Shown here piece after piece: positions 3,766 to 35,432 of a DNA stretch of 42,678 bases. Positions within the stretch are counted from its first letter, which is position 1. Every line of letters begins with the position of its first letter. The DNA is from a virus, in the IMG/VR virus record IMGVR_UViG_3300010339_000004, positions 1-42,678 of that record; one strand, written 5' to 3'. The notes beneath the pieces were generated by a model, which saw nothing but the letters and a program-made list of their open reading frames with translations, ran no database searches and was not told where the DNA came from. The position numbers and the translations under genes are program-made.

Positions 3766-4470
3766 CTACACAAAAGGTGTTATGCTACCCGTAGCGGTAA
3801 TATTCCCTACCACGGCCAAAGTCGGAGTTGTCATATTTACTACACCCACCGTGGTTATGTTAATTGTTGAGGCCATAATATTCAATTCTCCCGTGGCACT
3901 GATATTCACGGTGGCGGAATTCATATTTGCTTCGGTAGCCGCATCTATATTAATCGTCGGGGCAGAAAGAGTTAACTCTACCATACCCAGGGAAAGCTTT
4001 ACTTGTCCATTGGTGGATTGTAAAACCGCATTATTCACATCTCCACCAGCAATAGTATAATTAGTTAAAATATTTGGTATAAAAAAACTATCGGCGAAAT
4101 TTTTTACTCTAAAAGTATTGGGGCTAGAGTCTTGATACGAATTTAAAAAATTAGAAATATCTCTATCCAAAGCCACGATCCAGCCTAAATCCCCGGTATT
4201 GACTGGAAAATTTAACATAAAATTCCCGGCTCCTATTTGCAATACCGGAACACTGGCAATTTGAGCGCGCGGCGTGGCATTACCATTGGTATCTATTACT
4301 GAAATAGTAGGTTGCACTTGTGCTAAGTTGGTAGCTCGATTAAATGCTATTACTTTAGCGGGCAATGCGCCGTCTATGCTCTGCATCAATTTTGCAAAAA
4401 TGAAACGAAAACTCCCGGTAAAACTATCTAAATCCGCCGGATTATTTCCTATCGAAGGATTAGCATTCAT
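3766..4470 (-). CDS. Baseplate central spike (gpV / Gp138-like)
   Basis: A 234-residue spike protein. The N-terminal ~120 residues resemble the Gp138/gpV OB-fold domain (PVNTGDLGWIVALDRDIS is the typical GD-x-G-W/V-x-x-x-DRD motif). The C-terminal ~90 residues are a regular alternation of TxNIxA/NIxT repeats, as in a trimeric beta-helix that punctures the outer membrane. No lysozyme domain is present. The start overlaps the hub stop as ATGA. Confidence 0.88.
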   Translation of the reverse strand: MNANPSIGNNPADLDSFTGSFRFIFAKLMQSIDGALPAKVIAFNRATNLAQVQPTISVIDTNGNATPRAQIASVPVLQIGAGNFMLNFPVNTGDLGWIVALDRDISNFLNSYQDSSPNTFRVKNFADSFFIPNILTNYTIAGGDVNNAVLQSTNGQVKLSLGMVELTLSAPTINIDAATEANMNSATVNISATGELNIMASTINITTVGVVNMTTPTLAVVGNITATGSITPFV

Positions 4471-5279
4471 TTTTTAGCCTCAGCAATATAATAAAAAGAC
4501 ACGTCTCGATTTGTAATTTCAAAATTCAACTTATAAATAGTATAGGTTCCGTTAAAGGAGGGATACATAATACTCCTAATTTGTAAAGCGCCGCCTAACA
4601 CACTTTTATTATCTAATAAGTATTTTACTTTTATACCTTGTTCGGTCACTTCGGGTATGCCAATCATACCGGTTTCTATATCCACCACTCTCAATTGCCC
4701 GGAAAGTGGAGTGTTAAAATTAGTCACGATTAATTGGGCGTCATCTACGAAAACACTGATGTTTCCCAATTGTCCTAATTTTTCAACTTGTTTTAGTGCG
4801 CCTCCCGTAAAATTATAATTAGAAATTAACATATCGGTTGCTTGAAACACTAAATTTAAACCTAAATCACTAGCAACATTTTGCGATAGCTTAGATAGTT
4901 GCACTTGGCCCGGTTGCGTCCTCGACACGATATTCCCTTTCGAAAAATTACCGGTTAAACATTTCAACGTGGCAATTACATCAGGTGGCTGCCCGACGGT
5001 AACACTCGCCACTTCTCCGGTGAATATTCGACTGGTTCCGTATGACATACGACCTGCATCCACGGTGACTCTTTTTGGCGTACGATTTTTATTAAAGGGC
5101 GATGTTTCAGTCAAAATAAAATCTAAAACAGATCGTTCCAAATTAGTTATTTTTATCTCACACTTGTTTTGATTAGCATTAGCATATTTAGTCCCGTTAA
5201 TCGATAACTCCAAGCCTTGATACGTACGCGCTTGGCCATTTACTTCTATTGTTACTATGACAACGCGCGGATCAAGCAT
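4467..5279 (-). CDS. Baseplate hub protein
   Basis: A 270-residue baseplate hub protein of the Mu gp44/T4 gp27 type fold as seen in DUF3383-sheath myoviruses. It opens MLDPRVVIVTIEVNGQ and contains the hub-like NLERSVLDFILTETSPFN and RIFTGEVASV segments. I chose the second ATG (5279) because relatives start at M-[IL]-DPRVV; an ATG two codons earlier (5285) is also possible and no clear ribosome site separates them. It sits between baseplate plug and spike and overlaps both. Confidence 0.8.
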   Translation of the reverse strand: MLDPRVVIVTIEVNGQARTYQGLELSINGTKYANANQNKCEIKITNLERSVLDFILTETSPFNKNRTPKRVTVDAGRMSYGTSRIFTGEVASVTVGQPPDVIATLKCLTGNFSKGNIVSRTQPGQVQLSKLSQNVASDLGLNLVFQATDMLISNYNFTGGALKQVEKLGQLGNISVFVDDAQLIVTNFNTPLSGQLRVVDIETGMIGIPEVTEQGIKVKYLLDNKSVLGGALQIRSIMYPSFNGTYTIYKLNFEITNRDVSFYYIAEAKK

Positions 5280-7666: not shown

Positions 7667-7667
7667 T

Positions 7668-8197
7668 TCATTGTCCCTTTTTCTCTGCGTGTTTTATGGC
7701 TAAGTACTCGTTATATCGCGTAACCATAATCACTTCCCACAATAAAAAAGCGTCTTCTAGACTAAGGGTGGTTCGGAGTTCGGTGAGGGTGGCTTTTCCT
7801 TCGGCGATAATTGTTCCAAAAAAGCTGTCAATATTTTTGAAGTCTTCGCAAGCACACTCCGGGCGGTATCTTCGAAGAAAGTTGAGATCCGCCCTTGTGG
7901 AAAAAAACTTACGTTATATTGCATCATAGCTATTTCTAATTTAGCTAAAACCTCCCAAGACGTAACATGACTATCAATCAATGCCTTTGTTATTAAATTA
8001 ATTTTATGTCCATCTTTAATTTCAATTGCGACGTAAGACATCAACTTCAACATGGCCTCTTCATTCAATTGATAATCCCCGACTTTAGGCAATGCAGTCA
8101 TGGGGTATTTAGCGACAATTTCACGCCCCGCAATCGCAGGGAATTTAGAGATAATATACTTTTTTCCATCTATCTCAATTTCTTTCGGTTCAATCAT
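7668..8197 (-). CDS. Tail assembly chaperone GT fusion (made by -1 frameshift)
   Basis: Translation from 8197 that slips back one base on T7 (7907-7901) continues in the -1 frame to TGA at 7670-7668, giving 99 + 77 = 176 residues. The -1 frame is closed by TAA just upstream of the slip site, has no ATG start near its beginning and encodes a protein-like tail with FFGTIIAEGKATLTELRTTL followed by LSLEDAFLLWEVI and RYNEYLAIKHAEK. This is the known layout of G/GT chaperones of lambda, Mu and relatives, which coat the tape measure during tail assembly. It ends one base before the tape measure start, exactly where a T domain should end. Confidence 0.85.
7757..8197 (-). CDS. Tail assembly chaperone G (unshifted product)
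   Basis: The 0-frame product, 146 residues, beginning MIEPKEIEIDGKKYIISKFP. The N-terminal 99 residues are shared with the GT fusion and carry the conserved AxxGREI and helical YVAIEIKDG regions. The last ~47 residues are encoded by DNA that in the -1 frame makes the T domain, so this tail (ending proline-rich, KPPSPNSEPPLV) may be under little constraint. I chose ATG 8197, which overlaps the upstream stop by 8 bases and follows AGGGGAAG; the longer upstream extension would lie inside the neighbouring gene. Confidence 0.85.
   Translation of the reverse strand: MIEPKEIEIDGKKYIISKFPAIAGREIVAKYPMTALPKVGDYQLNEEAMLKLMSYVAIEIKDGHKINLITKALIDSHVTSWEVLAKLEIAMMQYNVSFFPQGRISTFFEDTARSVLAKTSKILTAFLEQLSPKEKPPSPNSEPPLV
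7901..7907 (-). promoter_or_regulatory. -1 ribosomal frameshift slippery site T TTT TTT
   Basis: On the minus strand the 0-frame codons are AGT TTT TTT CCA, so the run of seven T forms the canonical X XXY YYZ heptamer T TTT TTT. Re-pairing one base back keeps both Phe anticodons fully matched and next reads TCC in the T frame. A TAA in the -1 frame lies a few codons upstream, so the open -1 frame begins essentially at this site. Confidence 0.85.
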
Positions 8198-8925: not shown

Positions 8926-10482
8926 TTAAATCAAAATGTGCGTACCATTGACACTATTGATAGTATCGTCTTTTTTATAAATTAAAGTATATTCTGCTGT
9001 ATACACCGTAATGCTATCTACCACAGTGGCTACAATTACAAAATTGATCCAATAGCCAATCGTTTGTACCTGATACCAAGCGGTATCGGTACCGCTCTCT
9101 TCGTTGATGTAAAGTATTTGTAATTGCGATAATACGTTACCCGTGCTGATCGTACCATTACGTAGAGCCTGATTAATCACGGGTTGTGCAATAGCTAAGA
9201 GTTGAGCTATACCTTGACTATTAGCAGCGATCTCATTTAATACTAATTGTAATCCCAATATAGCCGCGCCCATGTTATCACGTAACCAAATCTCGTTGGC
9301 ATAAACCGTTATTGTCTGCGGTTGCGTCAATGAAGGCCCCATCAATATACCGTTTTGATAAAAAGCAAGTAACGCGCCTGCTTGTTGAGTTTGACCATAA
9401 TAATTTACGCCCAAAGCATCATATTGCTCAGAGATAGAAAGATCGGTTACGGAGGGGGTTAATCCGGGAGCCATTTGGTAAAAATAATTTTGCACGGTAT
9501 TACGACCAAAATAATTTGTGGCCGCTAAAATCATCATAGGTAACATTTCGGGATATTGCGCCGGTGATAAACCCGTCGGTGATACCGTAACTGTTAATCC
9601 GAGATAACCCATCAATGTCCCGGCATAAGTGGTTGCGGCAGTCAAATTCGGAACCGGAATCATAAATAAAAAACTAATATTTTTCCCGGTATTCCAAATT
9701 GCAATTTCTTGATATTGCGTCAAATCTAAATTAAGCGATGTCAGGAAAAGAAAAGAACCGAAATTATTAGATAACGAAGCCGACAGAGTTAACGTTTGAG
9801 TAAGAGTTTCAGCCGCATTACCGTTTGACCAAATAGCACCGACATTAGCAGTAACAGCTTGAGTAAACCATCCGATAACCGCGGAAATATCTTGACCAAC
9901 GCCGCCGGCGGCTACAGAAACAACCGCTACTCCCGTTGCACCACCTACTAAGTCAAAACTTCCTCGCACAGAATCATAAGTGACCGTTGCACTTGTCCAC
10001 AGTGCCCCGCCACCGCTTTCTGCCTGAATGGCGGCTTGTATTGCGGCGGCAACGGCAGCTAAAGTTAAATCACTTGAAAAATTTAAGCCGCTGACATCAA
10101 AAGTAAAACCGCCCAAGGTAAGAGTAAAAGAACCATTGGTAACCGCTTGTAATGCCGAAAGAGTAGATCCTGCGGCTATTAAATTTTGGCCAAAAATCAT
10201 TGGTGCAACGGCAGCATTAGTCCATCGACCAAAAGATATTTTTTGCGGCGAAGAAATGCTTTTACTAATCCAAGCAAAATAAAAAGCGGCGCGAAGGTAC
10301 TCCTCGGAAGTTAATCCAAAATAAGCACCTACGGCCGCAGCACTAGTAAATTCTAAATACATTTGCGTTGGCAAAAGATTATTGGTTGTAAATAATCGGC
10401 CAATTAACTCTCGGGTAGGGACAATGGTCGCCCCACCAATGCCCGAAGTAATATTGACATATTTAGAAATCGGAATTGCCAT
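8926..10482 (-). CDS. Contractile tail sheath protein (DUF3383 family)
   Basis: A 518-residue sheath protein; this gene is the main proof of a contractile tail. It opens MAIPISKYVNITSGIGGA, has the early V-x-TRELIGRLFTTNNLLPT segment, the LTSEEYLRAAFYFAWISKSI segment near residue 60-75, an inserted domain of about 110-200, and a C-terminal region with QYDALGVNYYGQTQQAG followed by a NEIWLRDNMGAAILGL stretch. GGAG lies upstream of the ATG. Contraction drives the tube through the cell envelope. Confidence 0.93.
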   Translation of the reverse strand: MAIPISKYVNITSGIGGATIVPTRELIGRLFTTNNLLPTQMYLEFTSAAAVGAYFGLTSEEYLRAAFYFAWISKSISSPQKISFGRWTNAAVAPMIFGQNLIAAGSTLSALQAVTNGSFTLTLGGFTFDVSGLNFSSDLTLAAVAAAIQAAIQAESGGGALWTSATVTYDSVRGSFDLVGGATGVAVVSVAAGGVGQDISAVIGWFTQAVTANVGAIWSNGNAAETLTQTLTLSASLSNNFGSFLFLTSLNLDLTQYQEIAIWNTGKNISFLFMIPVPNLTAATTYAGTLMGYLGLTVTVSPTGLSPAQYPEMLPMMILAATNYFGRNTVQNYFYQMAPGLTPSVTDLSISEQYDALGVNYYGQTQQAGALLAFYQNGILMGPSLTQPQTITVYANEIWLRDNMGAAILGLQLVLNEIAANSQGIAQLLAIAQPVINQALRNGTISTGNVLSQLQILYINEESGTDTAWYQVQTIGYWINFVIVATVVDSITVYTAEYTLIYKKDDTINSVNGTHILI

Positions 10483-16452: not shown

Positions 16453-17335
16453 CTTTTTCACCCTTATCAAATTCAATTACGGGAATCATTGTACAGCCAC
16501 AATTAATGGCTTGCCCTGGTATTATGCCGTCTGGATTATCTTCATCCCTGAACGGTAACTTATCAAAACTAAAAATCTCACCACTAATGGCGATGTGTTC
16601 TTTACGTGGCTTTTGACCGCCACCACTATGTACCCATTCAAAACGCTTTACGCCGGCTTGCTGCATACGCTGCGAATTGATGGAGTTATAAACTTTACGT
16701 GTTTGATCTAATGCAATATTTTTAGCTTTTCGTTCAGTAATTCCTTTATATTTTTCCAAAGCCGGAATCAATGTCCGCAAACCACCGCCCGTCGTAATAG
16801 ATCTCATAACACTTTTTTTGACACTAGATAAATACTCTTCTGCAATAGACGATATTAATTCCACATTTTCCGAAACACTAGCTTTCAAAATTGTTTTTAA
16901 ACCCGGCGTTATTAAATCCGTCTTTATGCTCAACCCACCGCTTAATTTTTTAAAACTACTATGTAAACTTGATTTACTGGCCGCCGCCGCCCCTTTAACC
17001 ATGCGCTCAGAAATGTTCGGCGCAGAACGCCCAAATAATTTTTCAAATTTACGCGACAGTGCATTAGTCAAAATACGCGCTTGACTTGCTAAATTGTCAT
17101 CCATGGCCACCGTCATATCAACATCATAAAAATTGGTAGCCGTTTCGCTCTCAAATAGTTTTGTAATTTGTCGTTCAGTTTGTTCGACCATCTGACGTAC
17201 TAAACGTTCTAACGCCGCTTTATATTTAGCCTGTTGACTGGCGTTATAACTTAATCGAGATCCACGCAAAATTACGTCTTGCCGCGATTGTACCCATTTA
17301 CTACGGCGTTTGGTTAAAAGTGTCATGATCGTCAT
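16445..17335 (-). CDS. Minor head / head morphogenesis protein (Mu gpF-like)
   Basis: About 296 residues. The C-terminal ~110 hold the phage Mu F domain: [38 protein letters not shown], and the closing CGCTMIPV. These proteins bind the portal on the inside of the head. The N-terminus overlaps the portal's 3' end; 17335 and 17326 are both possible ATGs and no good ribosome site decides. A longer start would lie far inside the portal gene. Confidence 0.87.
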
Positions 17336-21645: not shown

Positions 21646-24516
21646 TTAAACATAATACGAAAACGTCGTTTGATCTAATGATAAATTACCAGCTCCCGTT
21701 ATAGTAGCCGCTAACGGTCCTTGAAATAGAATTTGCCCAGTCGTTAAAATTACATTTCTCGTAGCTACAACAGTTCCGGTTGGATTTTGCAATGTAGTAT
21801 TTACAATGATTGCTGCGGCTGGTTGCAAACGCGCAGGCGCATTAGTATTTGCTACACATTGTTGGCTAGTTTGTGTCGATGAATTGGTAATAGTAAAAGA
21901 TGGGACAAACACCGTTACAGACCGACCGATGCGCCAAAATTGAATAGTTATTGTTCCGCTAGTCGCGGTTCCCCATGTAAACGTGCTGGTATAAGAACCA
22001 AATTCATAAACACTTAAATTAGTTTGATTTGTATCAGCATTTACAAAAGCAAAAGATGCAGGATTAAGAACATTTAAAACTGACGCTGGTAATAATGCCC
22101 CCATTGGATTCACAGTAAAATTTGGACTGCCAATTCCTGTAATGTTTCCGCCTAGTACAATTGCACGAAATGTAGTATTAGCGACTGTCGTAATCAATAA
22201 TACAGAATCAAGCCCCGTGGCTGAATTATACATTAATGTACCGCTCGCGCCAGGTGTAGTAGTTCCATTATCAGTTATAATATTTTGACCTGCTTGAGGA
22301 GAAATAGTCCATCCCCCATTAGAGCCACCTAATACGATAAAACAACTACCCTGGGCGCAAGTAGTAGGAGTTCTATAAGTTACTCCAACAACTCCATGAT
22401 CGGTTATATAGCCTGTTCCTGGGATCATTACAATTGGGGTGCTATTTGCATCCACCCAAGAACTTACTAGATTTACAGCTTTACTAACGAGGTCGTTGGA
22501 ACCATCTAACGATAAAAATTGAGATGCGGTTAAATTAGGAAAATTTACTATATTATTTGCAGAAAGAGTAGTAAACGCACCAGGAGCCGGGACAACTCCT
22601 CCTATAGCTACATTATTAAGATTGCCATTATTTAAAAGTGGCTTATATTCGGGTGTTACTGTTAAGGGGCTGAGTTGAGAAATCGTAATTTCTACACCTT
22701 GATAAACAGTAAGATTGGAAGCAATTTGGTTTCCCAAATGATCAGTAAAAGCAACTATATTAGTACCAGTTCCCGTATTATAAACCGTAACTTTTTGTCC
22801 AGGAGTCGCAGGGATTGTTGTTAAATCTGGAAATTGTATTGTGATATTTCCGCTATTTGTATCTGCTAAAATTACTTGTGGCAAGCTGGTTAAAGTAGTG
22901 TTGGATGAAATTGACATTACGCCGCCGCCACCGCCAAACGCATTCGTTAAAACGGCTTGCGCAAAATCCGTAACCTGCGATGATAGAATAGCAATCGCAA
23001 GAGTGGCGAGAGCGGTAAGTTGTCCTTGGGCATTTGCAGTCGCTGTTAACGTGCTATTCGCCGCACCGTACGAAGCGGGACTTACTGCGGTATTTGTGAT
23101 AGACAAAACATTACCGACTTTTGTCAATCCGGTACCGGCTATAATATTGGCCGCGGTATTCTGCGGTGAAAAAACAATTCCGGTAGTACCGATGGTAAAA
23201 GGACCGGCTCCCGTTTCCACAAATATATCTGTTGCATTTACTGTGCCTTCAGTAATTACGACAAATGCACCTTCGATCACGCCGATTGCCGTTACTGTAT
23301 TAAAATCAGAGGCACGTGTTATTATCCAGTTTGTGGAATTACTTCCAACGTTGGTAACCACGTAAATACCATTTTGGTATTGACCTGTTTGATCTTTAAT
23401 TAAAATACGATCTCCGACACTGGCCGTGACACTATCTATTACCAGCGCCGCTTGGGTTCCGGCATTAGTAAGAGTCGCACCTACTCCCGCCGTTCCATTA
23501 TTATATGTCACAGTTAGCGAGGTACCGGTCGTAGCCAAACGACAAGACGTACGCGAGGATGTACCTGCGGAAATACTATCAGCATAAGCTTTGGGGATTA
23601 ACTCCGAAGCGGCGGTGGGAATCAATGTATAATTGGTGATAGCGCCTGTTATAGTTCCACCGGCTAGAGGTAATCCACCCAAATTAGCGAGGGCAGTTAC
23701 AACATTTGCCATATCCGATAAATTGTTTGCGACTTGCGCGAAAAATGTGGATGGTTGCACCGCCGCGCTTGCTAATCCTAGGTTAGTACGTGCCGTCACT
23801 GCACTGGCCAAATCAGATAAATTATTGGCGGCAATTAAACGCGCGGCTAAATCGGCGGTTAATGAAGTCACCTGAGATTCTGTAATTTGGATTGGGGTAT
23901 TAGTAACCGCCGTTAATTGACCTTGCGGATTGTAAGTAATCGCCGGCACACTTGTCGCACCGCCCGCTGAACTACCGCTTACGCCGGTATTATTGATTGC
24001 AAGAGTCCATGGTGCTGGTAAATATAATCCGGTGCCCGCTAATAAAAATCCTAACTCTTGAAAAACGATAGCCGTAGTACCAACCGTTATCGGTGCCGGC
24101 GTAACCTGACTCCAAATTGATCCAGCCCATACGGTACCATTAAGCACAGCGACATAATCGCCGGCTTGAATTTCATCTGGAATTGAATTATCAAAATTGG
24201 ATGCGCGCGTTAAAATGGTAGTGGAAGTTTTAACATACAAACCATTATTAGCCGTGGTACTCTCATCTTTTATCAAAATATAAGAGCTAGTTGGTATCGA
24301 TGCTTGCGCCACGCCATCGAGTGACCATGTTGAACTTCCATAAGTCAAAGTAGCACCGACACCCGCGGTGCCATTATTATACGTTGCTCCCGTCGCTGCA
24401 TTAGATGCAACGTAAGCTTGAGCTTTAAAAATAAATCCGGATCCCACCGCCGCTAATTGGGTTTGATTTACCAATTGGAAAATAGCAACATACTCAATAA
24501 ATTGCGCGTAAGTCAT
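21646..24516 (-). CDS. Large fibre-like virion protein with repeated beta modules
   Basis: 956 residues. Start at ATG 24516 in an ATGA overlap with the previous gene; a GTG four codons earlier is less likely. Two related modules (about 40-150 and 330-450) both contain YNNGTAGVGATLT, ILIKD, NGLYV/NGIYV, TRAS-[ND]-F and a closing TIGTT-x-IVF. Between them lie fibre repeats NNLSD[LM]A and ANLGGLPLAGGTITGAI. The C-terminal half is all-beta with Asn/Thr/Gly bias. It is probably a second tail fibre or appendage; placement next to terminase, away from the tail genes, is unusual. Confidence 0.82.
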   Translation of the reverse strand: MTYAQFIEYVAIFQLVNQTQLAAVGSGFIFKAQAYVASNAATGATYNNGTAGVGATLTYGSSTWSLDGVAQASIPTSSYILIKDESTTANNGLYVKTSTTILTRASNFDNSIPDEIQAGDYVAVLNGTVWAGSIWSQVTPAPITVGTTAIVFQELGFLLAGTGLYLPAPWTLAINNTGVSGSSAGGATSVPAITYNPQGQLTAVTNTPIQITESQVTSLTADLAARLIAANNLSDLASAVTARTNLGLASAAVQPSTFFAQVANNLSDMANVVTALANLGGLPLAGGTITGAITNYTLIPTAASELIPKAYADSISAGTSSRTSCRLATTGTSLTVTYNNGTAGVGATLTNAGTQAALVIDSVTASVGDRILIKDQTGQYQNGIYVVTNVGSNSTNWIITRASDFNTVTAIGVIEGAFVVITEGTVNATDIFVETGAGPFTIGTTGIVFSPQNTAANIIAGTGLTKVGNVLSITNTAVSPASYGAANSTLTATANAQGQLTALATLAIAILSSQVTDFAQAVLTNAFGGGGGVMSISSNTTLTSLPQVILADTNSGNITIQFPDLTTIPATPGQKVTVYNTGTGTNIVAFTDHLGNQIASNLTVYQGVEITISQLSPLTVTPEYKPLLNNGNLNNVAIGGVVPAPGAFTTLSANNIVNFPNLTASQFLSLDGSNDLVSKAVNLVSSWVDANSTPIVMIPGTGYITDHGVVGVTYRTPTTCAQGSCFIVLGGSNGGWTISPQAGQNIITDNGTTTPGASGTLMYNSATGLDSVLLITTVANTTFRAIVLGGNITGIGSPNFTVNPMGALLPASVLNVLNPASFAFVNADTNQTNLSVYEFGSYTSTFTWGTATSGTITIQFWRIGRSVTVFVPSFTITNSSTQTSQQCVANTNAPARLQPAAAIIVNTTLQNPTGTVVATRNVILTTGQILFQGPLAATITGAGNLSLDQTTFSYYV

Positions 24517-24717: not shown

Positions 24718-25410
24718 TTAATCTCCTTTAATAATCCTTTGATATATTTTTGCCGCCTCGATCGGATCTTGAGTAATACTACCTAAACTTGATCCAAGAG
24801 CCGATGGTTGGGGTGAGTCTATCGCAGATGGCTTAAACATGCCAAGAGATTTTGCGATATTTTCCAAGGCCCGGTCTTGATCTCGCATAATAATTTCAGT
24901 GCCGTATTTTGTGCGTCTCACTCCCGCATAAAGATACCGGGCATCACCCGATAAATGCCGAGTATCAGCCACAAAGATATTATCTTGTCCTTCCCCTCTG
25001 CACACCGGACATTTAGGGTGCGGCGATTTAGTGTGATCAAATCCAAAACCTCCTAGCGGTTCTGCATCCCCTCGATAGTCTTGTTGTATCTCTTGATAAA
25101 AATGCCCTTTACCATAACAGTAATGGCAACAAGTGCGACGATTTTGGATGAGAGAATTTGGATCTGCTCTTGCTATCATCATCCATTGCATTAAAACTTC
25201 TTTGATTTCTAACTCAACTTTGTTCGCAAGAGACGCCCTGATTTCTTCGATACGTAGTTTAATATGTTCTCGAGACATCAGTAGTCCCGCTTTCACGTTG
25301 GCGGTTTTGGAATCGCCAAACACTCGACGATGTGCCTCTGTCGCATTTTCAAAACATTTTATGTACTCAATGCAAAAACGATCTTGCTGGTAAGTCAATT
25401 TATTTCTCAT
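24718..25410 (-). CDS. Terminase small subunit with zinc-binding insertion
   Basis: 230 residues. The N-terminus (LTYQQDRFCIEYIKCFENATEAHRRVFG) is the helix-turn-helix that recognises packaging sites. A DnaJ-like zinc insertion follows, CHYCYGKGH at ~95-103 and CPVCRGEGQ at ~134-142, as seen in other TerS of this type. The C-terminus (YLYAGVRRTKYGTEIIMRDQ, ENIAKSLGMF) is the oligomer/TerL-binding part. No ribosome site is visible before the ATG; a TATACT element lies only ~9 bases upstream, so the message may be leaderless or very short. Confidence 0.9.
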   Translation of the reverse strand: MRNKLTYQQDRFCIEYIKCFENATEAHRRVFGDSKTANVKAGLLMSREHIKLRIEEIRASLANKVELEIKEVLMQWMMIARADPNSLIQNRRTCCHYCYGKGHFYQEIQQDYRGDAEPLGGFGFDHTKSPHPKCPVCRGEGQDNIFVADTRHLSGDARYLYAGVRRTKYGTEIIMRDQDRALENIAKSLGMFKPSAIDSPQPSALGSSLGSITQDPIEAAKIYQRIIKGD

Positions 25411-25446
25411 GGCGCTAGTATAACCACAAAGCGATCGCTATTCTAT

Positions 25447-25464
25447 CCCCCCCCCCTTTTTTTT
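25447..25464. repeat. Homopolymer tract C10T8 (A8G10 on the terS strand)
   Basis: Ten C followed by eight T on the plus strand. On the terS-coding strand this reads A8G10 and ends 36 bases before the terS ATG. Such tracts slip during replication and can alter promoter spacing, but they are also frequent places of sequencing error. Confidence 0.8.
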
Positions 25465-25593
25465 GTTCTCTTTTTGTTTCACTTTTATATCGGTAAACTT
25501 CGATTTGTACATCGACGGAACAACCCCTATATTAGCCTCATGTCACGGTGTAGCTATGTTGTTGATTATTATATATTATTTGCTGTACATTTT

Positions 25594-25622
25594 TTGACAC
25601 CGGAACTCCGGAAGGGTACCAT
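25594..25622 (+). promoter_or_regulatory. Sigma70-type promoter with dyad in spacer
   Basis: TTGACA (25594-25599), 17-base spacer, TACCAT (25617-25622). The -35 is perfect and the spacing ideal; the -10 matches 4 of 6. The spacer contains the inverted repeat CCGGA-AC-TCCGG (25600-25611), a possible repressor site. It would drive plus-strand transcription toward 25975. Confidence 0.5.
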
Positions 25623-25702
25623 GGACTTGTAGAATATATACCCATAAGTATAGGACACTTTGGGTTACTTGTAAGTGTACGTAAGTATTTCAGGGGGAGA
25701 GT

Positions 25703-25717
25703 ATGAAAAACGCGTAA
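25703..25717 (+). CDS. Possible four-codon leader peptide
   Basis: A strong ribosome site (AGGGGGAGAG) lies just before ATG AAA AAC GCG TAA, encoding MKNA. It sits in the leader of the promoter at 25594. A short translated leader could regulate what follows, but the match could be chance. Confidence 0.25.
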   Translation: MKNA

Positions 25718-25833
25718 AAAACACCGAGTTCCGCGGACGCGCTACAGCCGTGGATTGCAGCCCACCGTGACGTTTTAAAATAGCACCGTAACTATCACTC
25801 GTTATATGTTTTAGAGGGTATACAATAAATACA

Positions 25834-25891
25834 TAATTTACATAATTTTATAGTAATTTACATAATTTTATAGTAATTTACATAATTTTAT
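25834..25891. repeat. Tandem 20-bp AT-rich repeats (iteron-like)
   Basis: The unit CATAATTTTATAGTAATTTA occurs twice exactly (25841-25860, 25861-25880), with an 11-base partial third copy after it and a 7-base partial copy before. About 20-bp spacing puts sites roughly two helical turns apart, as in replication iterons. Confidence 0.85.
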
Positions 25892-25914
25892 GATAATATC
25901 TCCGGCGGTGTCAA
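25885..25914 (-). promoter_or_regulatory. Candidate minus-strand promoter toward the late operon
   Basis: Read on the minus strand: TTGACA (25914-25909), 18-base spacer, TAAAAT (25890-25885). The -35 is perfect and the -10 matches 5 of 6. It points to terS about 470 bases away and would transcribe through the tandem repeats. The -10 lies in a very AT-rich tract, where such matches arise easily. Confidence 0.4.
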
Positions 25915-25974
25915 ACCGGCGTTACGGTGCTATTTTAAAATGTTTTGAGTTATAGCTAAAAGAGGTATCTAAAA

Positions 25975-26268
25975 ATGGAAACGACAACAAGAAGTGAAGC
26001 GGTACGAAAAGGATTGTATCGATACTACACCGGTAAACCTTGTCGCAATGGGCATACAGCCATGCGATATACCATGACCAGTGTGTGCAGCGAATGCCAA
26101 AAATGGAGAGCGCAGAAGTATCGTCATGGCGTAGAGGAACAACGAGTAGCGATGAGACTTAATAAAGTAATTGTGCAATATCATATAGACAGACTTGATC
26201 AACAGCATTTGGACGAGTATATAAAAGCGTTAAATGATGCTAGAGATTTAATGTTGGAAATAGATTAA
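25975..26268 (+). CDS. Small zinc-ribbon protein
   Basis: 97 residues beginning METTTRSEAVRKGLYRYYTG. The motif KPCRNGH ... SVCSECQKW (C27-x-x-x-H and C47-x-x-C approx.) is a zinc-ribbon-like module often found at the N-terminus of phage HNH nucleases, here alone and followed by a helical C-terminus. AAAGAGG precedes the ATG. It is the only long gene on the plus strand between 25411 and 35205, so it may be controlled by the adjacent non-coding region. DNA or RNA binding is likely; function unknown. Confidence 0.7.
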   Translation: METTTRSEAVRKGLYRYYTGKPCRNGHTAMRYTMTSVCSECQKWRAQKYRHGVEEQRVAMRLNKVIVQYHIDRLDQQHLDEYIKALNDARDLMLEID

Positions 26269-26272
26269 AACG

Positions 26273-26341
26273 ATAAGCGCACGGCCTCCCCCTAGACTTA
26301 CGGAAGGGAAGACCGCAAAAGAGGTCTAGGGAAGGGCTTAT
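26273..26341 (+). ncRNA. Predicted long stem-loop between convergent genes
   Basis: Arms 26284-26297 and 26324-26337 pair with a perfect 8-bp core CCCTAGAC/GTCTAGGG and further matches; ATAAG (26273-26277) can also pair with CTTAT (26337-26341). The 26-base loop contains an inner CGG/CCG pairing. It directly follows the plus-strand zinc-ribbon gene. No T run follows, so it is not a standard terminator on the plus strand; it may be a 3' stabiliser or an RNA in its own right. Confidence 0.45.
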
Positions 26342-26349
26342 GTGCATGT

Positions 26350-26373
26350 AAAAAGCCCGGCATAAAACCGGGC
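26350..26373 (-). terminator. Rho-independent terminator for the small-gene cluster
   Basis: Hairpin GCCCGG-TTTTATG-CCGGGC (minus strand reading, 26373-26355) followed by TTTTT (26354-26350). It lies about 115 bases after the last minus-strand gene of the cluster (26489). Confidence 0.8.
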
Positions 26374-26408
26374 ACAACTAATAACAACAGGAACAGCAGG
26401 AGATACAA

Positions 26409-26483
26409 ATGGTCAATAACACCATTTTGCTGCCAGCGACAGCTTTGCCTGGCGCAACACCAAAGGCTTTGATAGCTTACTAA
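26409..26483 (+). CDS. Possible 24-residue peptide
   Basis: ATG at 26409 with GGAG seven bases before it encodes MVNNTILLPATALPGATPKA then LIAY and TAA. It is hydrophobic with several prolines. It lies on the opposite strand to the small-gene cluster, over its 3' leader to the terminator. No family recognised. Confidence 0.3.
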   Translation: MVNNTILLPATALPGATPKALIAY

Positions 26484-26488
26484 GACAA

Positions 26489-26815
26489 CTAGAAATTGTC
26501 AATAGACAGGGTATTAATGATATATAAGGCTTTCTCTTCTTGTTTTAAGTAAGAAATAAGATAGGGGTTTATTGCTTCTGTTTTATTTATAAAAAAATAG
26601 TGCATGCTATTTAACATTAGAGTCGCCATATTTTCTAACAGATCCAATAGTTCATCTCTTACTTCAGGGACGGATTGTAATAGGGTCTTTATAATTTCTC
26701 GATTATCGGGATAATTTACTTTACTTTTGAGTATCATGGGGGGAGAATACTGACAATATAATTCTATGTATCCACCCATGAGAGCGATAAGCTTGTGTTT
26801 AATTGTTTGAGTCAT
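26489..26815 (-). CDS. Orphan early protein, last gene of small-gene cluster
   Basis: 108 residues, mostly helical, no recognised motif (MTQTIKHKLIALMGGYIELY ... EVRDELLDLLENMATLMLN). The ATG follows GGAGAG and overlaps the upstream gene by 17 bases. Being in a promoter-driven block of small orphan genes, it may be a host-takeover or anti-defence protein (inference). Confidence 0.65.
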   Translation of the reverse strand: MTQTIKHKLIALMGGYIELYCQYSPPMILKSKVNYPDNREIIKTLLQSVPEVRDELLDLLENMATLMLNSMHYFFINKTEAINPYLISYLKQEEKALYIINTLSIDNF

Positions 26816-29563: not shown

Positions 29564-31873
29564 TTATTTCGTTTGATCTATTGTATAATTTTTGGTCACT
29601 TCCACGGGATTATCTATCCGTACCGCCGGGCTCTCTTTATGAATATAAAGAGTCGGTCGTCCGTTATCCGGCAGTATGGGTATCGCAACGCGACCGCTCG
29701 GTAAAGCCGGATGCCAGTCATAACCTAAATTTTGTAGTAATTCTCTGCGTTTGCTACGCGGTATTTTGCGAGACGCATTGAGACGATCTAATAGTCGATC
29801 TAAAAATAAACTAGATATCCAACCGTTTTTAAAACCTTGTAATTGTTGTTCTATCGCCTCCTGAATTTCTTGTTCCACTCCCCCCAATCCTTGCTCTATT
29901 GCATCATGCGTAGTACTAGTGACCGGAGCGGGTTGCTTATGCGCGGGATTAAATTGATCAAGAATTTTATAAGTATGAAGGTACTCATTTACAATTGCAT
30001 ACCCGTCTCTTTGTTCTAACCAGTGATATAAATTCATAAAATAATCTTGTGTTAAACCGTCTCTTATTAAATCCTCTTTGGATTGTTGTGCCGTAAAAAA
30101 CGGGGCGAAACGTCGGTCATTACGAGTTTTACGTAAACCGTTTTTATGATTAGTATTTAATATAAAGTTACCGCATACGCGGCGCATCTCCTGCGGGGAA
30201 TACATTGCACGTATAGCAATATATTCCCCCGTGATCATCGGTTTTAATGTTTCTAACACTTCGATTTGTAAATCGGGATCCACATAAATATCTTCCACAC
30301 CGATAAATATTTTACCATACAACCAGTCATTGTATTTTTCTGTGATTTCTTTTGCATTTGGCAAGTGGGTATACCGACGTCCTACCGCATATGCCACGCA
30401 ACGACTAAAAAGAGTTTTGCCATTGCCATCCACGCCTTGAATTAAGGGTGCCCATTGAAATTTAATCCCGGGATGTTGAACGCACGCCGCTAAGTAACTG
30501 AGTAAAATTAATTGATCGTTTGCATCTGGTAATACTAACGATAAATGACGAGTAAATAATGTAATATCGCCCGCGACTCGACGAGTAGAAATAGGCCACC
30601 ACAAATTAACCAGTACGCGTTCGTCTTCTTTTATTAATTCCGCCGGTGACAAGTCTGGCCTAAAACAAGAAGTCTGAGCTTGTGGAAATTGTATCACTTG
30701 AGATTCCGTAAAAACTTCCCACGCATTACGTGTTACTCGTTGATTTAACGCATCCATCACAAAACTATATCCACCGTATGTTGCCCTAAATTGATCGGGT
30801 TTTAGTAATTCCCCGCCGGGTATTAAAATCCGATGAGCATCTCTCACATACACACACCCCTTAAATATTTCTTTTTGTTGATCCAGGGAGGGAAAAGAAT
30901 TGCGAATTGGGGCATCCTCGGCGACCATAGATTTATCTTGTAACCAACGGGTTTGCATCCCGCATGCTTTGATAATAGTATGACTTTTTAAATAATCTTC
31001 ACGTTGCCATTTCTCACGTACTAATTTTGATTGTAACATTAAGATTAAGATACGCTCACAATTATTGCCCGTCCAGTACGCTAAATGTTGCGCGAGTGCC
31101 ATATCCGCGCTACTCTCATCATAAGCTCGATCTCGATATTTATCGGGATAAGCACGAGACAGTGCTGGTATATCGCATTCCCACAACTCTTTAAAAGACG
31201 CTTTATTACCAAAAATTGCATTGGCGGAATGCGACGCAAGCATACGCTTAAGTAGAGTTTCGTCATCCGTTGGTCCATGCCATTGCACACAAGGCCCGGT
31301 TGTCCATTGGATATCAGAGATAGTATTTTTAACAGGGAAATATTGAGCCGTGAGCCACACTAGAGCCGGATCGTGTACAGTATCCACATTACCTATTGCT
31401 GACGTACCCGTAAGCGCCACAAACCGTTGTTGTGTATAAAATTCTATATTTGCATAAGTAGAAGATTTGCAAGCATGCTCAAGCGCATGACCACGACCGA
31501 TGATATGTAAACCTTTTCCGGATGAAGATATTTCGATCGAGGCTCCGGGAAAATGAGAGGCAATCTCAAGAGATAGTGCAGACCAAGAGTTATCCTGCGA
31601 TAAACAATCATCAATATCAATAAAAAAATAGGGATCATCTTTAGTAAAAACAAATCCCACGCCGTACCCTACACCAAGTATGTGATTATAAGTAATCGCT
31701 TCCTCTGCGGTCATCCATGACTCCGGAGACAAATGATTTATTTTATATCTACGTATCGGATCGATAGGTATTTTATCTGTTTTACCGGGACGTGAGTCGC
31801 TGGGTAGCAATTGATAAATTATAAATTGCGGAAATTTACTTAAACCCTCCAAGGCAATCGGTAAAAAATCCAT
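29564..31873 (-). CDS. Primase-polymerase / SF3 helicase fusion
   Basis: 769 residues. N-terminal PrimPol (AEP) domain with acidic pair PYFFIDIDD (D86, D88) and SSGKGLH (117-123, catalytic His). C-terminal D5/SF3-type helicase with Walker A GVDGNGKT (480-487), Walker B KIFIGVEDIY (521-530) and sensor ILNTNH (571-576) followed by NDRR arginines. It would prime and unwind phage DNA. The last ~130 residues (EQGLGGVEQEIQEAIEQQLQ, then SRKIPRSKRRELLQNLGYDW) may be a winged-helix end domain. It is last in the operon begun by the SF2 helicase. Confidence 0.9.
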   Translation of the reverse strand: MDFLPIALEGLSKFPQFIIYQLLPSDSRPGKTDKIPIDPIRRYKINHLSPESWMTAEEAITYNHILGVGYGVGFVFTKDDPYFFIDIDDCLSQDNSWSALSLEIASHFPGASIEISSSGKGLHIIGRGHALEHACKSSTYANIEFYTQQRFVALTGTSAIGNVDTVHDPALVWLTAQYFPVKNTISDIQWTTGPCVQWHGPTDDETLLKRMLASHSANAIFGNKASFKELWECDIPALSRAYPDKYRDRAYDESSADMALAQHLAYWTGNNCERILILMLQSKLVREKWQREDYLKSHTIIKACGMQTRWLQDKSMVAEDAPIRNSFPSLDQQKEIFKGCVYVRDAHRILIPGGELLKPDQFRATYGGYSFVMDALNQRVTRNAWEVFTESQVIQFPQAQTSCFRPDLSPAELIKEDERVLVNLWWPISTRRVAGDITLFTRHLSLVLPDANDQLILLSYLAACVQHPGIKFQWAPLIQGVDGNGKTLFSRCVAYAVGRRYTHLPNAKEITEKYNDWLYGKIFIGVEDIYVDPDLQIEVLETLKPMITGEYIAIRAMYSPQEMRRVCGNFILNTNHKNGLRKTRNDRRFAPFFTAQQSKEDLIRDGLTQDYFMNLYHWLEQRDGYAIVNEYLHTYKILDQFNPAHKQPAPVTSTTHDAIEQGLGGVEQEIQEAIEQQLQGFKNGWISSLFLDRLLDRLNASRKIPRSKRRELLQNLGYDWHPALPSGRVAIPILPDNGRPTLYIHKESPAVRIDNPVEVTKNYTIDQTK

Positions 31874-31887
31874 ATGGTCGTCTCTTT

Positions 31888-32193
31888 TTATTTAGCTAAG
31901 TACTCCATCACTTTAGCACGTAGGGGTTTAGGTATTTTCGATAGCTCAGGATTACTGAGTAATTGAGCGAGTAACGGTAGTATTTTATTTTCCACTGCAT
32001 AATCTACCACGGCTTGTCGTAATTTTTTTATACTTTTAAAATAGTATAAAATTAAAGAATAGCTACACCCAGCGGCATGAGCTATTTTAACTAATGTAAT
32101 TTTATAGTAACCTTCTTTTAATGCAAAGACTATCGCAGTTTCTAAAATTTGACGTCTACTTTCTTTCGCCGGTAAACGTTGATACTTATTCAT
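31888..32193 (-). CDS. TetR-type short transcription regulator
   Basis: 101 residues. Residues ~12-65 (RRQILETAIVFALKEGYYKI, LVKIAHAAGCSYSLILYYFKS) are the TetR N-terminal helix-turn-helix, with the usual YYF-x-S-K/I helix 4 start. The family normally has ~200 residues with a ligand-binding domain; only ~35 follow here, so it is a short form. It overlaps the nuclease gene by 8 bases. It is a candidate to bind the 16-bp dyads at the early promoters; TetR proteins bind such palindromes as dimers. Confidence 0.78.
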   Translation of the reverse strand: MNKYQRLPAKESRRQILETAIVFALKEGYYKITLVKIAHAAGCSYSLILYYFKSIKKLRQAVVDYAVENKILPLLAQLLSNPELSKIPKPLRAKVMEYLAK

Positions 32194-32865: not shown

Positions 32866-33148
32866 AGCGTTTACTCCCATTTCGGTAGTTTAGGTTTGAA
32901 AAGGTAAGAGTATTTAAATATTCAATAGCGTGTTCTTTACGATCAAAAACCCGAGGGGTATTGGAAATTCTCAAAATACTTAAGACAATGATAATCAATA
33001 AAAACATTTGTAAAATATAAGAGTTACCAAGATATCTATAGTTAATATAATACGTACCTATTATAAAACCAAAAAAAATAAATATTTTTGATAATAAAAA
33101 TATTAAACAATTTTTTACAACAACAATTTCACATGTTACGCATTTCAT
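32858..33148 (-). CDS. Small membrane protein, two helices
   Basis: 96 residues with hydrophobic stretches at ~10-33 and ~41-60 and a basic, Tyr/Asn-rich C-terminal tail (RKEHAIEYLNTLTFSNLNYR). CVTC near the N-terminus. GGAG lies nine bases upstream. It is the third in a row of tiny membrane proteins inside the replication operon. Function unknown. Confidence 0.65.
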   Translation of the reverse strand: MKCVTCEIVVVKNCLIFLLSKIFIFFGFIIGTYYINYRYLGNSYILQMFLLIIIVLSILRISNTPRVFDRKEHAIEYLNTLTFSNLNYRNGSKRYG

Positions 33149-33325
33149 TTAATTAACTCCGTGTCCTAAAATTAAAATGGATACCATGATGCATGCTATA
33201 GAAACTGAAGTCAAATACCAAAAAGCTATTTGTATTAATACTTTATTATTTCTAATTAAGCTCTGACGCAGTAAAACTAAAACAATCGTATCCGTGATTA
33301 TCATTACTATTAAAAAAATTAACAT
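33149..33325 (-). CDS. Tiny membrane protein (58 residues)
   Basis: ATG 33325 with GGAG before it. Hydrophobic helix 1 is MLIFLIVMIITDTIVLVLL; a short basic link RQSLIRNNK leads to helix 2 (WYLTSVSIACIMVSILIL). Stop abuts the next ATG directly. Two-helix hairpin topology. Confidence 0.6.
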   Translation of the reverse strand: MLIFLIVMIITDTIVLVLLRQSLIRNNKVLIQIAFWYLTSVSIACIMVSILILGHGVN

Positions 33326-33336
33326 AGGTTTACTCC

Positions 33337-33495
33337 TTAATTTAAAACGTAAGAAATTATAATCAGTAAGCCAAGAATCGTTGTTACTAAACTAATAGTA
33401 ACACCTATACTACAGGGTATTACATAGAACATCGTTAAAAAAAGATTAATTGTTCCCATCATACAGATCGCAATTGCTATTGGAACTCTAATCAT
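33337..33495 (-). CDS. Tiny membrane protein (52 residues)
   Basis: ATG 33495 overlaps the helicase stop as ATGA and follows GGGGGG. Two hydrophobic stretches, roughly 4-28 and 31-50, separated by a CSIG turn. No charged residue after Arg3 apart from the termini. Same style as the next two genes; function unknown. Confidence 0.55.
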   Translation of the reverse strand: MIRVPIAIAICMMGTINLFLTMFYVIPCSIGVTISLVTTILGLLIIISYVLN

Positions 33496-35123: not shown

Positions 35124-35133
35124 TTTTTTATGC

Positions 35134-35161
35134 TTGACTTAATTAACAGTAATGTTAATAT
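35134..35161 (+). promoter_or_regulatory. Rightward early promoter
   Basis: TTGACT (35134-35139), 16-base spacer, TAATAT (35156-35161), upstream of the plus-strand replication operon at 35206. Its -10 coincides with that of a leftward promoter. Confidence 0.65.
35143..35158. promoter_or_regulatory. Operator-like dyad, copy 2
   Basis: TTAACA-GTAA-TGTTAA, extended one base pair each side (35142, 35159). It lies over the spacer of the rightward promoter and the -10 of the leftward one. Confidence 0.6.
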
Positions 35162-35185
35162 ACGCAGCTCATTTGATGTTGTCAA
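35157..35185 (-). promoter_or_regulatory. Leftward early promoter for the helicase operon
   Basis: Minus strand: TTGACA (35185-35180), 17-base spacer, TATATT (35162-35157). Perfect -35 and a 5/6 -10. It faces the rightward promoter with overlapping -10 boxes. Confidence 0.75.
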
Positions 35186-35205
35186 CTACGAAGGAGTAAA
35201 AAATT

Positions 35206-35388
35206 ATGAAAGTATACGCAGTTATGATAGACAGTCATGAAATACTGACGGACTGTTTTTTAGATAAAGAAGAAGCCGAAGAATGTGCTAAATCATTTGG
35301 TGAGAATACCCCCGGTACCACTCGGATTATAGAATTAAATTGTAAGGATTTGCCCGAAATGTCAACTCTAACATGTGGCTATGAATAA
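35206..35388 (+). CDS. Small orphan protein, first gene of rightward operon
   Basis: 60 residues, MKVYAVMIDSHEILTDCFLD then KEEAEECAKSFGE; a beta-beta-alpha unit like other short phage proteins. AAGGAG before the ATG. Unknown function; promoter-proximal so likely well expressed. Confidence 0.65.
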   Translation: MKVYAVMIDSHEILTDCFLDKEEAEECAKSFGENTPGTTRIIELNCKDLPEMSTLTCGYE

Positions 35389-35432
35389 AATCACCGTCTA
35401 TTAATTTCAGATTCAATATAAGGAGTAAAAAA

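Follow-up and report, generated by a model that had tools for sequence, protein, structure and literature searches.

Among the described systems closest to the locus studied here, PICI origins consist of two iteron sets that flank an AT-rich region 3' of the pri-rep gene, according to the passages cited (PMC6092414), and in SaPI Rep and Cch2 it is the C-terminal domain that binds iterons (PMC7581432). For the archaeal plasmid pRN1, the cited text states that replication requires a 100-nt stem-loop downstream of the PrimPol-SF3 gene, of which the structure is conserved and the sequence is not, and it proposes the same origin type for Bordetella phage BIP-1/BPP-1, near the middle of the genome (PMC4234260). 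Specific binding of the pRN1 protein ORF904 at this stem-loop was looked for and not found (PMC4234260), which calls for caution in the present case. In satellite phage P4, as related in two of these sources, the winged-helix domain of the primase-helicase binds the origin repeats at ori/crr (via PMC4234260, PMC6092414). For phage NrS-1, recognition sites in the genome centre have been suggested as the origin (PMC7102993, PMC8718748).

The DNA analysed here is a stretch of 42,678 bases (hereafter the window), which is a whole IMG/VR record classed as linear and encodes, by its gene content, a contractile-tailed phage. The left side, on the minus strand, carries the terL, portal, protease, major head protein, sheath, tape measure and baseplate genes, and the right side is the replication half, with primase, a DEAD-type helicase, an exonuclease, a gp2.5-like single-strand binding protein and DNA polymerase A. 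Judged by DNA polymerase, the closest phages, at about 50% identity, are Acinetobacter phage Scuro, Shewanella phage SppYZU01 and Stenotrophomonas phage B2. The GC skew of the window tracks gene strand and is uninformative on the origin. As the original prediction had it, the element lies between terS and the early half, in an intergenic region of 564 bp, and the two flanking genes, terS and that of a 97-aa zinc-finger-like protein, are divergently oriented (Table 1). The primase gene is 3.6 kb away, and several small genes intervene. The claim that this was the only large non-coding region did not hold, the ORF set used giving gaps of 933, 523, 343 and 309 bp elsewhere (589-1521, 7667-8189, 33149-33491 and 35124-35432). 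Just upstream of the terS start, ten C are followed by eight T at 25447-25464, which read as A and G on the terS strand; this may be an assembly error or a site of slippage.

Table 1. Coordinates in the window of the parts of the element, of promoter-like sites and of the genes concerned
Feature	Position	Strand	Remarks
Left arm of perfect inverted repeat, TTTTAAAATAGCACCGTAAC	25773..25792	+	contains iteron CACCGTAAC
Right arm	25921..25940	-	exact reverse complement of left arm
AT-rich core, proposed melting region	25793..25920	.	75% AT; central 71 bp 89% AT
Three direct repeats, period 20, TAATTTACATAATTTTATAG type	25834..25897	+	25834-25857, 25854-25877, 25874-25897
Left iteron set	25598..25788	+	CACCG at 25598, 25722, 25763, 25784; 3/4 fit CACCG(T/G)(A/G)AC
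Right iteron set	25906..25929	-	CACCG at 25906-25910 and 25925-25929
Outlying iteron copy, CACCGTGAC	25546..25550	-	off the two-set orientation
Promoter-like TTGACA-18-TAAAAT (11/12), towards terS	25885..25914	-	consensus scan only; -35 overlaps iteron (TTGACACCG)
Promoter-like TTGACA-17-TACCAT (10/12), towards small plus-strand gene	25594..25622	+	consensus scan only; -35 overlaps iteron
terS, terminase small subunit	24718..25410	-	Terminase_2; phrog_51; starts late block on left
97-aa protein with CxxGH...CxxC zinc-finger-like segment	25975..26268	+	phrog_1081; weak endonuclease VII match
Primase-helicase, proposed initiator	29564..31873	-	AEP PrimPol N-terminus (NrS-1 polymerase-like), NrS-1 HBD, SF3/DUF5906 helicase, C-terminal domain predicted winged helix
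101-aa TetR_N-type HTH protein adjoining primase	31888..32193	-	alternative candidate iteron binder

The predicted perfect 20-bp inverted repeat was present, with a spacer of 128 nt between its arms, and with one mismatch allowed the arms reach 23 nt (25770-25792/25921-25943, 96%). It is the sole inverted repeat in the window with arms of at least 14 and a spacer of at most 600; four others had arms of 12-13. When the whole window was shuffled 200 times with dinucleotides preserved, the arms found (spacer 20-300) reached 17 at most, which bears out the very low chance probability that had been attributed to the repeat. The three 20-bp AT-rich repeats reported for the interior are likewise real, with a 24-nt register, start-to-start distances of 20 and 20, and values of 100%, 100% and 92%. 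The word CACCG occurs in 7 copies in 25411-25974, where the remainder of the window would predict 1.14, and five copies of the intergenic region show the extended word CACCG(T/G)(A/G)AC. These CACCGTRAC-type sets, mostly opposed in orientation, flank the AT-rich core, and their innermost pair is the perfect inverted repeat.

Stability within the window was lowest in the 60 bp from 25842, which ranked first of about 711. The second least stable stretch, 33006-33117, is located in and beside the 343-bp gap preceding the helicase gene. As single-stranded DNA, 25770-25943 folded at -30.8 kcal/mol with a z of -7.4 versus 200 shuffles, and 2 of 12 control stretches within the window likewise gave a z below -3. 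Judged on exact 8-mer repeats only, the region was unremarkable, as it ranked second among the stretches of the window and 14 of 117 control blocks equalled or exceeded its score. Rfam gave 0 matches at gathering for the whole window and 0 at E<=1 for 25400-26500. On the plus strand at 25693-25783, a strong Shine-Dalgarno-like GGGGGAG is followed by a four-codon frame, ATGAAAAACGCGTAA; past its stop, the frame is open again until a TAG within the left arm.

The element thus described combines the PICI and pRN1 designs, in that its iterons are inverted, its stem is perfect and its interior is AT-rich. As in the PICI/SaPI origins of the cited text, two opposed iteron sets stand around a 75% AT core, with one copy (25546, minus strand) off the pattern, and the window adds the perfect 20-bp inverted repeat. 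Whereas the PICI/SaPI origin is described as lying immediately 3' of rep, the window element is beside terS, and the phage is a full-size tailed one that itself encodes DNA polymerase A, an SSB-like protein and an exonuclease. Placement immediately 3' of the initiator gene, absent from the window, was found in the relatives 4316, MR14, L066 and L033. With pRN1 (ORF904), as far as described, the window shares a PrimPol-SF3 protein, for which a winged-helix-like C-terminus is predicted in the window. The likeness to pRN1 and BIP-1 extends to an inverted repeat that could fold into a large stem-loop (23-nt arms and the above fold z in the window), with structure lacking sequence conservation, and that to BIP-1/BPP-1 to an element within a phage genome of about 42 kb. 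The pRN1 account has no iterons and a stem-loop directly behind the gene, in contrast to the window, where iterons stand beyond the stem, the interior is 128 nt of AT-rich DNA and the gene is 3.6 kb off.

With NrS-1, the window shares a homologous N-terminal PrimPol and HBD and an SF3 helicase ring, as described for that phage (PMC7102993, PMC8718748). NrS-1 differs in that no long intergenic element stands at the corresponding place and that its 8-mer, TTTGGTTA, is unlike the window iteron. This 8-mer occurs exactly once in the NrS-1 record (L128), at 17198-17205, between primase and terS, compared to two copies given for the recognition word in the cited passage (PMC7102993). The P4 alpha protein has a primase of the bacterial (TOPRIM) type, unlike the window, the likeness being one of description.

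No DNA-level relatives of the region were found in the phages collection. Neither the exact arm and arm pair nor the small zinc-finger-like protein led to a match or relative in viral_contigs. The arm scan of genome_contigs gave one match, L102, on the Chitinophagales scaffold JAAFJT010000001.1 at about 4460-4740, which was rejected because the likeness was confined to the 12 searched bases, inside tandem repeats with GGTGCGTAGCACCGTAAC; that these 12 bases are common to both is probably chance.

As no arm match was obtained in viral_contigs, relatives were sought via TerS, TerL, primase, portal and polymerase, and the place upstream of terS, or between primase and terS, was compared, some of the comparison regions having been chosen after repeat clusters had been seen. 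In relatives with a PrimPol-SF3 primase-helicase, the intergenic region that separates the primase side from the terminase side is the shared location of an AT-rich core and, beside it, of short clade-specific iterons, each relative having a word of its own. This word was CCAAGTAC in B2, TACCCCG in L027 and JD001, CCGCACAC in L066 and AAGTAAGT in L098, and many GTGCCCC words stood mainly on one side of the AT-rich stretch in PY6 and Vibrio phage 1.009.O. An exact 17-bp inverted repeat with GCCCGAAC surrounds a 190-nt AT-rich stretch in L047, two GTGACGTTA words form a 19-bp inverted repeat around 64 nt in Acinetobacter phage 4316, and Vibrio phage CP-T1 has a 26-nt inverted repeat with a 234-nt spacer and further nested ones. 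In L033, four iterons CTTAGAGA and the least stable DNA immediately followed the primase gene, at a distance of 1.4 kb from terS, so that the primase was present and the element absent from terS. An element directly after the primase gene was also seen in 4316, MR14 and L066, and in 4316 and MR14 it stood between co-directional genes. Absence of conservation in relatives, named in the original prediction as speaking against a function, therefore holds for the sequence; the architecture, however, recurs. The folding z was strong in the window, CP-T1, L047, 4316, B2 and Vibrio phage 1.009.O. With a weak z (above -1) in the five relatives JD001, PY6, MR14, Scuro and SppYZU01, a stem-loop as a universal feature of these elements was unsupported.

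In JD001 (L118), a 285-bp element was present twice, at 22984-23268 upstream of terS and at 9450-9734 upstream of a neck gene, and the two copies were 96% identical. PEAT2, LAPP1 and ZCEC13 had matches at both of these places, the second copy keeping one position in all four phages, and the JD001 terS region had 170 matching places in 79 phage records. The two copies in these jedunaviruses fit two origins or two regulated late units and do not fit a single packaging start. Published passages that mention jedunaviruses or KpV phages contained neither termini nor origin data, and for phages with NrS-1-like primase-polymerases no mapped origin was found in open-licence PMC text.

That the element might be mobile, as the original prediction had also suggested, can be put in the form of a small MITE-like element that ends in 12-bp repeats, TAGCACCGTAAC, and has duplicated an 8-bp target, TTTTAAAA. 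The 8-bp sequence does stand at the outer end of both arms; being itself palindromic, it makes a target duplication indistinguishable from longer arms. The second JD001 copy is bounded at its outer iterons, as a mobile unit would be, and yet it occupies the same position in JD001, PEAT2, LAPP1 and ZCEC13, and the unrelated sequences at the same place in relatives are at odds with insertion. Solo copies, which were expected elsewhere under this reading, did not appear: the window holds no second copy, viral_contigs no exact arm/arm pair, and the genome_contigs match is alike over the 12 searched bases only. No empty site or related copy was found either, and we regard a mobile element as highly improbable.

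The stability of the core was then compared by nearest-neighbour duplex stability in a set of 17, made up of 12 whole phage records, the window and four contig loci. With W=60, the homologous intergenic region ranked first in 13 of the 17, namely the window, B2, CP-T1, PY6, Vibrio phage 1.009.O, MR14, Scuro, SppYZU01, LAPP1, ZCEC13, L047, L027 and L098, where the regions had been picked by gene order, some after repeat clusters had been seen, the elements of JD001, PEAT2, LAPP1 and ZCEC13 are too similar to count as independent, and L047, L027, L066 and L098 are partial loci. JD001 and PEAT2 were at rank 2, each behind its own second element copy, 4316 at rank 4 and L066 at rank 12. With W=100, 11 regions were at rank 1, four at rank 2, 4316 at 9 and L066 at 19.

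Whether the architecture tracks the primase or the terminase bears on the packaging reading of the original prediction, in which the element would be a pac or cosB-like site where TerS binds the iterons and TerL cuts nearby. Its place immediately upstream of terS in most relatives is what such a site would lead one to expect. The sample comprised 57 TerS-bearing loci including the window, and a window-family (phrog_1829-type) primase was found in 8 of the 56 other records, some of which are fragments in which the primase may be missing for that reason alone; the D5_N family gave 1 match only over the 56 records. Inverted repeats with a score of at least 14 within 700 bp upstream of terS were present in 4 of 9 loci with the primase (the window, L047, L107 and L115) and in 0 of 48 without it (Fisher 3e-4); as the window prompted this test, the count with the window left out is 3 of 8. 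At a threshold of 13, the counts were 5 of 9 and 1 of 48. The least stable 60 bp, within up to 7.6 kb around terS (rank 1 within about 3.5 kb), were upstream of terS in 7 of 9 loci with the primase compared to 12 of 48 without it (p 0.004), and both p-values are too small because the TerS-bearing loci are related to one another. The 12 also mean that AT-richness is common upstream of terS in phages without the primase.

Among relatives with the primase, 6 of 8 had a top-ranked cluster of exact 8-mers upstream of terS, as did 11 of 48 records without it. The latter speak for packaging, since repeat clusters (GGTTCGCA/GGTACGCA/TGCGCAAA and others) are found near terS where no such primase is present, and TerS binding to the clusters near terS was the reading first favoured. 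It then lost ground, as the clusters without the primase are mostly another motif, situated near the TerS N-terminus, one TerS-linked family accounting for most of the 11, and none has the inverted repeat. Around the start of N-terminally extended TerS genes, GGTTCGCA/GGTACGCA repeats were observed in L039, L040, L042, L045, L069, L092 and L094, and TGCGCAA-type repeats in L006-L013. Both kinds are clade-specific, stand in TerS relatives without a PrimPol-SF3 primase and are a candidate TerS-binding (pac/cos) motif.

For the element itself, the word TACCCCG goes with different TerS families (phrog_309 in L027, phrog_51 in JD001) and different words go with the same family (L027 and L047, both phrog_309). 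On these sequence comparisons, the element goes with the PrimPol-SF3 replication protein, because the inverted-repeat architecture was found in none of the 48 records without the primase, L033 carries its element away from terS and the TerS families differ. A pac site is less likely for the same reasons, the two jedunavirus copies being odd for a packaging start as well, and we consider packaging quite improbable. Of the three readings offered by the original prediction, the origin thus gained from the architecture, the melting rank and the co-occurrence with the primase, the pac site lost ground, and the mobile element was left without further copies.

A further reading is that the element is a divergent early/late control region, in which a phage regulator, perhaps the TetR_N-type protein, would use the iterons as operators and switch the facing promoters for the terS/late genes and for the small plus-strand gene, looping between the arms holding both off. 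The two best promoter-like sites, both with TTGACACCG, have an iteron over the -35 box and point one each way, and the consensus scan gave 12 promoter-like sites compared to 5.6 expected. AT-rich DNA gives promoter-like sites by chance, however, which weakens this observation. Regulation would also suit the divergent genes that the element separates in the window, the late genes (terS and neck) downstream of both jedunavirus copies and a promoter annotated nearby in the KpV79 record; against this, the genes after the primase are co-directional in 4316 and MR14, where no divergent switch is needed. A control region leaves the least stable core in many relatives and the association with the primase unexplained, and we consider this reading unlikely, in both its regulator and its looping part. 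Origins commonly contain promoters, so an origin and a control region are both possible.

We return to the origin. By analogy with the PICI and pRN1 origins, the element is probably a phage replication origin that works like them and is opened and primed by the NrS-1-like PrimPol/SF3 helicase. The N-terminus of this protein matched NrS-1 primase-polymerase structures (E 2e-19), its SF3 part weakly matched the NrS-1 helicase part (E 0.001), and its Pfam matches were NrS-1 HBD and DUF5906. The last ~100 residues had a predicted pLDDT above 90 in 9 of 10 blocks of ten and a predicted order of strand-helix-helix-strand-strand. Foldseek with this C-tail gave no significant match (E above 0.7), and the rows of the VIA-align search were mostly winged-helix domains with middling Z of 5-6 (best 5.9), so a winged-helix-like C-terminal fold is predicted. 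The TetR_N-type HTH protein, of about 100 aa and with no ligand domain, had similar sequences in 16 of the loci or genomes searched, the window included. No clear covariation signal was seen between the iteron word and the identity of the primase C-tail, as L027 and JD001, which share TACCCCG, are 49% identical in the C-tail and no closer than L027 and Scuro; nor was there one between the word and the TetR_N-type protein. Since the iteron sequence clearly follows neither, neither the primase-helicase nor the TetR_N-type protein is singled out as the binder.

From these likenesses we infer a possible course of initiation. Binding of the inverted iterons would fall either to the primase-helicase, by means of the winged helix predicted at its C-terminus, or to the adjoining TetR_N-type HTH protein; two SF3 rings would load face to face, and the core with the three 20-bp repeats would melt. 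The PrimPol domain would then prime on the exposed strands, and two forks would depart in opposite directions; the strong arm hairpin may assist, as proposed for pRN1. Because the window does not show the placement immediately behind the initiator gene, the origin would be a variant of the known general design. The weak 8-mer rank, the 3.6 kb to the primase, the internal near-consensus promoter and the two jedunavirus copies are points against an origin.

PrimPol-SF3 tailed phages, lytic ones included, may share one origin class at the primase/terminase junction, with conserved position and architecture (inverted iterons that surround the least stable DNA of the genome), variable sequence and a word of each lineage's own, duplicated in jedunaviruses as two origins; we put this at a little under an even chance. 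If true, it would extend an organisation that has been described as common to no known bacterial replicon but PICIs, and origin specificity would be a fast-evolving trait that can be read from the sequence. The rule that the least stable DNA beside lineage-specific iterons, from the primase side to terS, marks the origin would give predictions for many phages, Klebsiella jedunaviruses and Vibrio phage CP-T1 among them. Phage origins would then be linked to those of PICI satellites and archaeal pRN plasmids, with words that change and an architecture that stays.
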